NCBI RefSeq assembly: GCF_019688735.1
Contig: NZ_JAIFYA010000002.1
Coordinates: 62,001-126,000, forward strand
DNA from: Thermosulfurimonas sp. F29
GTDB taxonomy: Bacteria > Desulfobacterota > Thermodesulfobacteria > Thermodesulfobacteriales > Thermodesulfobacteriaceae
DNA length: 64,000 nt
Direction: 5' to 3'
Shown here: piece by piece, positions 44,818 to 49,223 of the stretch
How positions within the stretch are numbered: position 1 is the first letter of the stretch
Layout of the letters: every line of letters starts with the position of its first letter
Program-made: the position numbers and the translations under genes
The notes under the pieces: model-generated
Databases searched by the model: none
Seen by the model: the letters and a program-made list of their open reading frames with translations, nothing else
What the model was told of the DNA's origin: nothing

Positions 44818-45147
44818 ATGTTTACAGTTTTGGTGGTGGTGCAGGCAATTCTGGCCATATTTCTGGTGGCTATCGTTCTCGTCAATGTAGGCAAAGGTTC
44901 GGAGGTGGGGGCAGTGTTCACCGGCAGTCAGGCCATCTTCGGAGGAGCCGGACCGGGCACCTTTCTCAACAAGGTTACCGCTTTATTGGCCATACTGTTT
45001 TTCGCTAACTCCCTCCTTCTCACCTACCTTTCCGTTCAGAAAAGAAAAGCTTCCCTCATGGAAAGGGCCCCGGTGGCTGTGCATCCCCAGAAGGAAAAAT
45101 CCCTACCTACCCCTCCTCCCCTTCCGGTGCCTCCTCGTTCTCAATGA
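44818..45147 (+). CDS. secG: Preprotein translocase subunit SecG
   Basis: 109 residues. Two membrane helices (VLVVVQAILAIFLVAIVLV and VTALLAILFFANSLLLTYL) flank the conserved cytoplasmic loop with GKGSEVGAVFTGSQAIFGGA and GPGTFLNK, diagnostic of SecG. It assists SecYE in the Sec channel. The C-terminal tail is Pro-rich (PTPPPLPVPPRSQ), and its last 41 nt overlap the convergent MerR-type gene. Confidence 0.93.
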   Translation: MFTVLVVVQAILAIFLVAIVLVNVGKGSEVGAVFTGSQAIFGGAGPGTFLNKVTALLAILFFANSLLLTYLSVQKRKASLMERAPVAVHPQKEKSLPTPPPLPVPPRSQ

Positions 45148-45580
45148 GCTCTTTTTCCTTTTGGAGGAGGTAGTTTTTATCTCTCAGATAAATTTCACAT
45201 TTTTCGCATTGTTGCATCTTTTTGCATGCCGAATTGACCAATTGCCAGCAGGGTTTAGATCGATCCCGGTAGGCGGTACATTCCTGACGCACCTCTTCGG
45301 GACAGTTCTTAATTTCCCAGCAGGGAGTAAACTCTAAAAGCTTTTTGATCCCCGGGATGCTGATACCCTCTTCGTGAATAAAAGAGCGCAGACACTTGAG
45401 CCACTCTATATCATTGTAAGAAAAATATCGTTTGTTTCCTTTTTTTATGGGCTTTACCAGCCCCTCCTGTTCGTAAATTTTAAGGGTTCGAGGATTCACC
45501 CCCAGGATCTTGGCGGCCACACCTATAGGAAATAAAGGTTCATCTTTTTCGGGGATTACCTTTTTCAGCCTCGCAGACAT
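45107..45580 (-). CDS. MerR-family regulator with Cys-rich C-terminal domain
   Basis: 157 residues. The N-terminal winged helix (FPIGVAAKILGVNPRTLKIY, then EQEGLVKPIKKGNKRYFSYN) is a MerR/HspR-type DNA-binding domain. The effector half has seven Cys at 87, 93, 101, 111, 119, 125 and 128, with CEKC and two CW pairs, so it probably binds Zn or an Fe-S cluster; this inference rests on spacing only. The gene overlaps secG convergently and faces away from the cytochrome gene's start, so its targets are not evident. Confidence 0.8.
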   Translation of the reverse strand: MSARLKKVIPEKDEPLFPIGVAAKILGVNPRTLKIYEQEGLVKPIKKGNKRYFSYNDIEWLKCLRSFIHEEGISIPGIKKLLEFTPCWEIKNCPEEVRQECTAYRDRSKPCWQLVNSACKKMQQCEKCEIYLRDKNYLLQKEKELIENEEAPEGEEG

Positions 45581-46254: not shown

Positions 46255-46980
46255 TCAAATGATTTTGGCCAAAATAAAGCCCAGTTCCATCAGAAGGTAA
46301 AAGCTCATAAAGATGAGCACCTGGGAGAGAAAATCTCCGGGGACGAGGAAAAGAGCCAGGAGGTAGATCCCCCCGAGGATGTACCATCTTTTCCGGGCCA
46401 GGATCTTTCGGGAGATAAGGTTAATTCGGGTTAAAAAGGCGATGGCCAGGGGAATTTCGGCCACCAGTGCGGAGACGAGTACGGTTTTGCCCAGAAAGGC
46501 CAAGTAATTCTGGAGGCGCAGGTTGGCCTCAAAGTGGCTGAAGCCGAAGCCCAGGAGGAATTTCAGGAGAACCGGCAACCACACGAAGTAACCGAGAGAT
46601 ATTCCCAGGACTACGAGGAAAAAGGAGAGGAGGAGCACCCGTCTTCCGAGGCGTCTTTCTTCCGGATAAAGTCCGGGGGAGAGGTAGGCCCAGGCGTGAT
46701 AACTGATCACGGGGAGGGTGAGGGCGAGGGCGAGGAAGAAGGTGGTCTTGAGGGCGGCCATGATGGCCTCGGGAAGGGTGGTGAAGACCAGTTTTAGGTG
46801 GGCCTCGCCCATGGCGCGGGTGTAGGGCCAGAAGAGCAGGGGGGTCAACCGGGGAAAGAGATAGAAAAGGAGACACCAGAAGAAAAACAGTACGGCCAGG
46901 CAAAAAATGAGCCTTTTGCGCAGTTCGGCGAGATGGACTTCAAGAGGAAGTCTGGGAAGTTCCCGACGGTGAGGAAACAT
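46255..46980 (-). CDS. tatC: Sec-independent protein translocase TatC
   Basis: 241 residues with six membrane helices. The N-terminal LEVHLAELRKRLIFCL and the first periplasmic region are TatC hallmarks, with FKTTFFLALALTLPVISYHA-like and YLSPGLYPEERR motifs (the latter is the conserved cytoplasmic FxxPGLxxxE pattern). It forms the receptor core of the twin-arginine pathway. It overlaps the TatB-like gene by 41 nt. Confidence 0.94.
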   Translation of the reverse strand: MFPHRRELPRLPLEVHLAELRKRLIFCLAVLFFFWCLLFYLFPRLTPLLFWPYTRAMGEAHLKLVFTTLPEAIMAALKTTFFLALALTLPVISYHAWAYLSPGLYPEERRLGRRVLLLSFFLVVLGISLGYFVWLPVLLKFLLGFGFSHFEANLRLQNYLAFLGKTVLVSALVAEIPLAIAFLTRINLISRKILARKRWYILGGIYLLALFLVPGDFLSQVLIFMSFYLLMELGFILAKII

Positions 46981-47203
46981 TTTCCAGGGGCTCCTTTAGA
47001 TCCTCTCCTAGAGAGGTTATCTCGTCGCGGGCTTCTTCGATTTCGTCAAGGGCGAGTTCCTTTTTCAATTCCTCGGTGGCCCTGCGGAATTCCACCACCA
47101 GTCGGGCCACGGCCCGCCCCATTTCCGGAAGTTTTTCCGGCCCCACCACTACCAGGGCCACGATGAATATAACCACCAGTTCGGGGAATCCGATGTTAAA
47201 CAT
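46940..47203 (-). CDS. tatB: TatA/TatB-family protein (TatB-like)
   Basis: 87 residues. An N-terminal membrane helix (FPELVVIFIVALVVVGPEKL) is followed by the hinge and an amphipathic helix (PEMGRAVARLVVEFRRATEE), then an acidic tail. The Glu in FPEL and the VVGPEKLPE pattern favour TatB over TatA. It overlaps alr by 8 nt upstream and tatC by 41 nt downstream. A separate 53-residue TatA lies at 61022. Confidence 0.9.
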   Translation of the reverse strand: MFNIGFPELVVIFIVALVVVGPEKLPEMGRAVARLVVEFRRATEELKKELALDEIEEARDEITSLGEDLKEPLENVSSPSGTSQTSS

Positions 47204-48314
47204 CCCGATAGATCCTCACCAGTCGTCTTCCCAGGGCACAGAATATTTCATAACTGATGGTTCCGGCAAGCTCGGCCAGTTCGTCCACCGGGACCCTTTC
47301 CTCCGCACCGCCCAGGAGGATGACCTCCTCTCCCGGTTTGACCTCACCCTCCACTTCGGTGACATCCAGGGTTAAAGAGCGCATGGACACCGCCCCCACC
47401 ACCGGGACCCTTCGGCCCCGCAACCAGGCGAACCCCCGGTTGCTAAGACCGCGGGGATATCCGTCGTCGTAGCCCACCGGCACGATGGCTATCCGGCGGG
47501 GCTCCCGGGCTCGATAAAGGGGACCATAGCCCACCGCTTCTCCGGCCCTGATGTTTTTGACCTCCAGGATACGCGCCTTTAAGGTCATGACCGGTCTAAG
47601 TTTAACACGGGCCCGGGCTCGAAAGGAGGGATATCCTCCGTAAAGGCTTATTCCGGGGCGAACCAGATTGCCTCCGGCTCCGCGCAGGAATATGATCCCC
47701 GCGGAGTTGGCCGCGTGGAAAAAACGGAGGGAGGGGAATTCCCGGGAGAGTGCGTTTTTCAATTGATGGAAAAGGCGGAGCTGTTCCCGGGTTAGGGGGT
47801 CTTCGGGTTTTTCGGCGCAGGCCAGATGCGTCATCAACCCCGAGACCCGGAGTTGCGGATTTTCGCGAAGGAGATTCAGGGCCGCGGGAAGTTCCTCCGG
47901 GGTGAGCCCCAGTCGGTGCATCCCGGTATCCATCTTGAGGTGAACCTCCAGGGCTATTCCCTTGCGCCTGGAAAACTCCGCCGCGGCCTCGATCATGTGT
48001 AGAGAGGCCAGGGCCGGGATGATCCGGAGCCGAAGTATCTCGGGTAACCAATCCGGCTCGAACCCCGAAAGGAGAAAGAGAGGAAGGGCCAGCCCGGCGC
48101 GCCGAAGGCGCAGGGCCTCCTCGGGTTCGGAGAGCCCGAATCCGTACACCCCCTCCTGGGAAAGGACCCGGGCCACCTCGAGGAGCCCGTGTCCGTAGGC
48201 CTCGCTCTTTATGACCGCGAGAACGGCCGTCTCTTCGGGAAGGAGGGCCTTAAGGGCCCGTAGATTGGCCCGTAGGGCGGCCAGATCTATTTCCAGCCAG
48301 CGCGACCAGCGAAT
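47196..48314 (-). CDS. alr: Alanine racemase, apparently initiated at ATT
   Basis: 372 residues if started at ATT 48314. The PLP-binding lysine lies in VIKSEAYGHG (Lys36), and the racemase core follows (EVHLKMDTGMHRLGL, RPGISLYGGYPSF, AVSMRSLTLDVTEVEG with the Cys/Ser-Met region, and Tyr in AVGYGPLYRAREP). No ATG, GTG or TTG exists between the upstream in-frame stop and GTG 48176, and starting there would delete the catalytic Lys. The ATT aligns with the usual Met (x-R-W-S-R-W-L-E-I-D) and has GGGGGAGG five bases before it. It makes D-alanine for peptidoglycan and heads a unit with tatB-tatC. Confidence 0.88.
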   Translation of the reverse strand: MRWSRWLEIDLAALRANLRALKALLPEETAVLAVIKSEAYGHGLLEVARVLSQEGVYGFGLSEPEEALRLRRAGLALPLFLLSGFEPDWLPEILRLRIIPALASLHMIEAAAEFSRRKGIALEVHLKMDTGMHRLGLTPEELPAALNLLRENPQLRVSGLMTHLACAEKPEDPLTREQLRLFHQLKNALSREFPSLRFFHAANSAGIIFLRGAGGNLVRPGISLYGGYPSFRARARVKLRPVMTLKARILEVKNIRAGEAVGYGPLYRAREPRRIAIVPVGYDDGYPRGLSNRGFAWLRGRRVPVVGAVSMRSLTLDVTEVEGEVKPGEEVILLGGAEERVPVDELAELAGTISYEIFCALGRRLVRIYRDV

Positions 48315-48320
48315 GGAAAC

Positions 48321-48327
48321 CTCCCCC
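48321..48327 (-). promoter_or_regulatory. Ribosome-binding site deciding the ATT start of alr
   Basis: On the reverse strand GGGGGAGG ends five bases before ATT (48314-48312). It is the only Shine-Dalgarno-like site upstream of the catalytic lysine codon in this frame. Confidence 0.65.
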
Positions 48328-48408
48328 GGTTCGGGTTCAGTTCTGATTTAACCTCAAAGCCCGGTTCTTGGCAAAAATCTTAAGGGAATATATCTTTGAA
48401 TATCCTCC

Positions 48409-48437
48409 TTGACAGGGAAGAAGAATATTCATATTTT
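48409..48437 (+). promoter_or_regulatory. Candidate promoter of sufC
   Basis: TTGACA (48409-48414), a 17-bp spacer, then TATTTT (48432-48437), about 34 nt upstream of the sufC ATG. AAAGGAGAGGG precedes that ATG. Confidence 0.6.
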
Positions 48438-48470
48438 TGGATAGAGATACTCAACTAAAGGAGAGGGTGT

Positions 48471-49223
48471 ATGGGTAAGGAGGCTTTGCTGGAGGTAAGG
48501 GATCTCTGGGTGGAGGTGGAGGGCAAGGAGGTTTTGAAGGGGGTGAGTCTCACCATTCCCAAGGGGGAGACTCACGCCCTGTTTGGTCGAAACGGTTCCG
48601 GGAAGACCACGCTGCTCATGACCATCATGGGTTTTCCGGCCTATCGGGTCAAGCACGGAAAGATCATTTTCAAGGGAGAGGACATCACCCACCTCCCCCC
48701 TTACGAGCGGGCCAAGCGGGGCATAGGCATCATGTTTCAGCGCCCGCCCACCATTCGCGGGGTAAAGCTCCGGGAGATGCTCAAACTCTGCGCCAGGGAC
48801 AACGGAATCAGGATCGAGGAGCTGGCCCGGGAGTTCGGGTTCGAGAGTTTTCTGGATCGGGATGTGAACCGCGGTTTTTCCGGGGGGGAACTCAAAAAGA
48901 GCGAGCTTTTGCAGCTTCTCATACAGAGTCCGGATCTCTCCCTGATCGACGAGCCGGAGTCCGGGGTGGATGTGGAGAATCTACAGGTCATCGGGCGCAT
49001 GATCCGGAAGCTCCTCCAGAAGGACTCCCATCGTCCCCGCACCCGAAGCGGTCTGGTCATCACCCACACCGGGTTCATCCTGCAGTATGTACCGGCGGAC
49101 CTGGGATATGTGATGATGGACGGCCGCATTTACTGCAGGGGCAACCCCCAGGAGATCTTTGAGGGGATTCAAAAACACGGCTACGAGGAGTGCGTGTCAT
49201 GTCTGAGAAGAATAGAAGAATAG
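48471..49223 (+). CDS. sufC: SufC-type ATPase of Fe-S cluster assembly
   Basis: 250 residues. Walker A is in LFGRNGSGKTTLLMTIMGFP, the Q-loop in GIMFQRPPTIRGVKLREMLK, the signature in FSGGELKKSELLQLL and Walker B in DLSLIDEPESGVDVENL; the last, with ESGVD, is typical of SufC. It powers the SufB-type scaffold encoded by the overlapping next gene. Only two suf genes are present, as in the minimal SUF/SMS systems of anaerobes and archaea, with no SufS or SufU nearby. Confidence 0.93.
   Translation: MGKEALLEVRDLWVEVEGKEVLKGVSLTIPKGETHALFGRNGSGKTTLLMTIMGFPAYRVKHGKIIFKGEDITHLPPYERAKRGIGIMFQRPPTIRGVKLREMLKLCARDNGIRIEELAREFGFESFLDRDVNRGFSGGELKKSELLQLLIQSPDLSLIDEPESGVDVENLQVIGRMIRKLLQKDSHRPRTRSGLVITHTGFILQYVPADLGYVMMDGRIYCRGNPQEIFEGIQKHGYEECVSCLRRIEE

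Follow-up and report, generated by a model that had tools for sequence, protein, structure and literature searches.

Where does translation of a gene begin when no ATG, GTG or TTG lies in frame ahead of the codon for its catalytic lysine? The alanine racemase gene (alr) of Thermosulfurimonas sp. F29 raises this question, and we approached it from the window, that is, the whole stretch of 64,000 nucleotides that was analyzed, and from related genomes of the class Thermodesulfobacteria, a group of thermophilic sulfur bacteria.

The alr locus and its reading frame

The features of the locus are as follows.

47196..48314, minus strand: alr, alanine racemase; 372 codons plus stop counted from ATT; matches to TIGR00492 and to PF01168 and PF00842
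48312..48314, minus strand: putative ATT initiation codon of alr; aligns with ATT, ATC or ATA in 34/36 class genomes and with ATG in none
48320..48327, minus strand: Shine-Dalgarno (SD) sequence GGGGGAGG of alr; 5-nt spacer to ATT, anti-SD duplex energy -11.7 kcal/mol
48348..48350, minus strand: in-frame TAA closing the alr frame, 11 codons before ATT
48207..48209, minus strand: PLP lysine codon of alr (residue 36), preceding the first in-frame ATG, GTG or TTG
46940..47203, minus strand: tatB (TIGR01410, 65.3 bits); its ATG overlaps the last alr codons
46255..46980, minus strand: tatC (TIGR00945, 140.5 bits)
48471..49223, plus strand: sufC-like ATPase gene, divergent from alr (TIGR01978, 199.2 bits, slightly below the cut-off of 212.8)

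The alr frame runs from the TAA (48350-48348) through codons for IRTEPEPGEVS to the ATT (48314-48312), which is followed by CGC and TGG, and the earliest in-frame ATG, GTG or TTG is a GTG at 48176, 11 codons past the PLP lysine. A sequence-only reading of this DNA had placed the PLP lysine upstream of every in-frame ATG, GTG and TTG and had proposed the ATT at 48314 as the start. The former is correct, as there is none between the TAA at 48350-48348 and the lysine codon at 48209-48207, and the latter agrees well with the presence of GGGGGAGG five bases upstream and of ATT, ATC or ATA at the same site in 34/36 class genomes. If begun at ATT, Alr gives a full-length match to TIGR00492 over residues 5-369 (345.9 bits, curated cut-off 168) and retains the VIKSEAYGHG motif with the PLP lysine at residue 36. 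The gene at 48314-47196 is the sole copy encoding a full-length Alr in the window's genome.

Two further observations concern the surroundings of alr in the window. The spacer between alr and the sufC-like gene (48360-48470) is A+T-rich and contains repeats resembling AATATTC (TATTCAAAGATATATTC), which may form an operator for one of the divergent units. Shortly 3' of alr-tatBC there is a gene on the minus strand (45107-45580) for an HspR-like regulator of the MerR family, scoring under the curated HspR cut-off.

The alr start codon across the class

We searched 41 Thermodesulfobacteria genomes, spanning Thermodesulfobacterium, Thermodesulfatator, Caldimicrobium, Thermosulfurimonas and their relatives, and found Alr in 37, with a readable N terminus in 36. 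Its start was read as ATT in 29 of these genomes (two of which have it one codon 3' of the aligned site), as ATC in four, ATA in one, CTG in one and an ATG two codons upstream in one; ATG at the aligned position itself occurred in 0/36. The check proposed with the sequence-only reading, that ATT or another rare codon be kept in relatives, thus came out in its favor, with ATT, ATC or ATA in 34/36 genomes and ATG at the site in none. More than two-thirds of the class alr genes (27/36) have no ATG, GTG or TTG between the upstream stop and codon 5, and 10/36 have no canonical start ahead of the catalytic lysine. In genomes G026 (stop-GTT-ATT-TTC-TGG) and G028 (stop-AGT-ATT-TGG), the stop precedes the ATT with just one codon intervening. 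The trait is shared by the isolates Thermosulfurimonas dismutans S95, Thermodesulfatator autotrophicus S606 and Thermodesulfobacterium hveragerdense DSM 12571, and also by Caldimicrobium and Thermodesulfobacterium geofontis, and the Alr proteins with ATT, ATC or ATA are ~52 to 82 percent identical to that of the window. We reject sequencing error or chance as the source of the codon, given its presence as ATT, ATC or ATA at one site in 34/36 class genomes, isolates included.

Outside the class, mostly in other Desulfobacterota, a canonical start was found within -15 to +4 codons of the corresponding position in 78/78 readable Alr genes. Because of this, the non-canonical alr start, as read from these alignments, is derived within the class Thermodesulfobacteria, where it is near universal.

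A few members depart from the common arrangement. A TTG directly precedes the ATT of alr in G008, and in G009 (L017) an ATG lies two codons 5' of the aligned start, directly past the G run of the SD (GGGGGATGGGGATT), such that ATG or ATT could serve; the Alr of these two genomes may use the adjacent TTG or the upstream ATG. The CTG at the aligned start of G030 (L041), the sole member of a separate family in its order, has an SD, AAAGGAG, six bases upstream, and the only TTG of that gene is poorly placed, nine codons upstream, the CTG being possibly another near-cognate start. The Alr of G006 (L026) has regained an ATG two codons before the aligned start and has a weaker SD than its relatives, as if compensation had been released.

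Gene specificity

Are such starts a general habit of these genomes? We compared stretches of ~400 kb each from six class genomes, giving 451 reciprocal-best ortholog clusters, and flagged a cluster when, in both members of a pair, the conserved alignment was well under way before any canonical start appeared. When the 34 flagged clusters were inspected by eye, almost all of them turned out to have an ATG, GTG or TTG where the protein appeared to begin, or to be out-of-frame shadows. Only two real cases without a usable canonical start were found in the 451 clusters, alr and prfB, a count that applies to a genome sample in which genes that happen to have a canonical codon close by would be missed. 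A second scan, for a conserved near-cognate codon behind a strong SD, found alr as the sole N-terminal start. General use of AUU starts is therefore rejected by the 451-cluster scan of stretches from the six genomes. The prfB gene is well known for its +1 frameshift, and its recovery serves as a positive control; in G004 (L261) and G009 (L228) it has the known frameshift layout, with a stop just before GGVFDPE, and the scan recovered it blind.

Probable selection on the start codon

If the ATT were an ordinary isoleucine codon, its use should resemble that of other isoleucine codons in the same genes. It does not: ATT makes up 22/26 of the isoleucine codons at the start column versus 44/139 at five other conserved isoleucine columns (Fisher p 9e-7, relatedness ignored), and the common isoleucine codon of the window's G+C-rich genome is ATC. 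An Alr tree of 29 members has five state changes, three to ATC, one to ATA and one to the upstream ATG; G007, with a sequence of insufficient length to be placed on the tree, adds another ATC. On the tree, the third base of the start has thus changed at least four times and never to G, and that it moves among T, C and A in this way argues for selection against AUG.

The SD of alr, with a median energy of -10.2 kcal/mol, surpasses the SDs of other genes in strength (p 3e-6, relatedness ignored), and in G006, with its regained ATG, it weakens to -5.0, in line with SD strength making up for a weak codon. No consistent difference from other genes was found in mRNA folding at the alr start. Because the conservation counts include related lineages, the statistics carry less weight than their face value suggests. 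In a survey of how start codons evolve, a single switch from AUG to AUU was recorded for 61,358 ancestral AUG starts (PMC5622118). Taken from the sequences, the near class-wide retention of the codon suggests that weak initiation of alr is selected, and is not an error.

Gene neighborhood

The order alr-tatB-tatC is kept in the class, with the end of alr overlapping the start of tatB (47203 in the window). The sequence-only reading had proposed that tatB and tatC are coupled to alr and might share its tie to initiation; the overlap and the conserved order stand, and the tie of the order to AUU does not, for ATG-started outgroups also have alr-tatB-tatC, and the order is for this reason probably older than AUU. 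The 5' neighbors differ by lineage. In the window and G032 they are divergent sufC and sufB, and in the window no upstream gene therefore runs into alr, while in G010 a gene whose sequence looks like that of a reductase ends two bases before the ATT. That the start is unchanged despite these different upstream arrangements indicates that no single kind of coupling is required for it.

infC, tRNAs and the leader

The AUU start of E. coli infC lets IF3 autoregulate its own gene, and we asked whether infC shares the alr trait. It is present in the class, and it starts with TTG in the window's genome and with TTG, GTG or ATG in those relatives that were read, all canonical codons. In these genomes we thus found neither autoregulation of the infC type, through an AUU or AUC start of infC, nor an infC that is co-regulated as an AUU gene. 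An infC match with one in-frame TAG was reported in an outgroup genome (L075, G046). Among the tRNA genes read in two genomes there was no unusual initiator or isoleucine tRNA, and one standard initiator was seen among those of G010. Upstream of alr, the leader showed neither a regulatory partner nor any known RNA element. IF3 represses non-canonical starts in both E. coli and Streptomyces (PMC5472188), and it is on this general property that the tie of D-alanine supply to initiation-factor levels, as suggested in the sequence-only reading, would be based.

Discussion

The position of the alr start, its conservation, its restriction to this gene and its strong SD are, as far as comparison of sequences goes, established. 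Could Alr nevertheless be made in another way, through a programmed frameshift or run-on from an upstream frame, with the ATT an internal isoleucine codon? Strong sequences resembling an SD can promote frameshifting, prfB being an example, and the G010 gene that ends so close to the ATT would suit run-on. However, in G000, G003, G014 and others neither of the two other frames has an ATG, GTG or TTG open into the ATT, many genomes have in-frame stops 0-5 codons upstream of the start, the upstream neighbor in the window is divergent, and codon use at the site is unlike that at other isoleucine columns. Since neither other frame of the window's genome has a canonical start open into the ATT, frameshifting is very unlikely there, and with no canonical-start frame leading in there or in several other genomes, we rejected a frameshift of the prfB kind; this entire class of explanation is highly improbable. 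We give just as little credence to initiation at another near-cognate codon of the window frame. Such codons do occur (CTG at codon 7, ATA at codon 9 and the ATC adjoining the stop), but they are not kept among relatives as such codons with SD spacing, and the conserved Trp at codon 3 together with the SD fixes the start at ATT.

What the codon means is a separate question. We consider it likely that Alr translation starts at AUU (48314), that this codon has been kept by selection against AUG with the strong SD compensating, and that it throttles Alr synthesis. The ordinary fMet initiator tRNA would read AUU, pairing with its first two bases and mismatched at the third, the strong SD five bases away would hold the complex on the 30S subunit, and IF3 would keep initiation low. 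We infer fMet as the first residue, a low output and selection for that low output. The AUU would have been inherited by nearly the whole class, occasionally as AUC or AUA, with AUG selected against most likely since weak, fidelity-controlled initiation limits synthesis of an enzyme that may be needed just in catalytic amounts and be costly in excess. Alternatively, AUU could be a frozen accident of the class ancestor, rendered harmless by the strong SD and a low demand for Alr and without regulatory meaning, and the failure to find a regulatory partner or known RNA element upstream, together with the canonical infC of these genomes, would fit such an origin. We hold it to be unlikely, as a single base change would turn ATT into ATG, elsewhere the favored direction (PMC5622118), yet none of the 36 genomes has ATG at the site despite the third-base changes counted above. 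A stronger form of the throttling explanation makes AUU a true IF3-responsive switch of the kind described for E. coli infC or Streptomyces sigR, with Alr output tracking initiation-factor activity and cell-wall D-alanine tied to the state of translation. The repression of non-canonical starts by IF3 (PMC5472188) and the presence of infC in the class speak for it, and against it infC, in the class genomes read, is without the autoregulatory AUU; we regard this form as somewhat doubtful. That Alr output follows IF3 activity is, by analogy, plausible.

To our knowledge, very few genes have conserved non-canonical starts. In E. coli, pcnB has an AUU start thought to keep expression low; alr resembles it in its codon and in a presumed low output, and differs in gene and lineage. 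With prfB, which the same scan found, alr shares the absence of a canonical start opening the main frame, but prfB is read by frameshift, whereas in the window's genome no other frame feeds into alr. The infC start is AUU in E. coli and AUC in Streptomyces, and sigR, which is IF3-repressed, has GTC in 32/34 Streptomyces species, GTT in the other two and an extended ribosome binding site (PMC5472188). Like E. coli infC, alr has AUU in an important gene, although infC encodes IF3 itself and is canonical here. Like sigR, alr has a non-canonical start throughout its lineage, an extended ribosome binding site and coupling to the gene downstream; unlike sigR, which has GTC in one genus, it has AUU, AUC or AUA over a class of several families, encodes a metabolic enzyme and is known from sequence. 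Of the features that mark genes of the infC and sigR kind, alr has no usable ATG, GTG or TTG, an aligned near-cognate codon and a strong SD, and it would join this small group, the further feature predicted for it being expression that IF3 limits and a canonical codon raises. A literature search, mostly of papers outside subscription, found no report of an alr with an AUU or other non-canonical start.

One practical consequence is that gene finders limited to ATG, GTG and TTG will truncate Alr across the class, and in the window's genome the catalytic lysine would be lost in this way. For the biology of these bacteria, the significance of the alr start is that it is kept over several families, is gene-specific and sits in an essential cell-wall enzyme, thereby permitting a direct test of whether, and why, a weak start codon is maintained in a gene by selection. 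It is conceivable, though we think it improbable, that nearly the whole class has kept AUG off one essential metabolic gene such that D-alanine and cell-wall synthesis are metered by the fidelity of initiation, through IF3, in which case alr would be a natural reporter of the state of translation.
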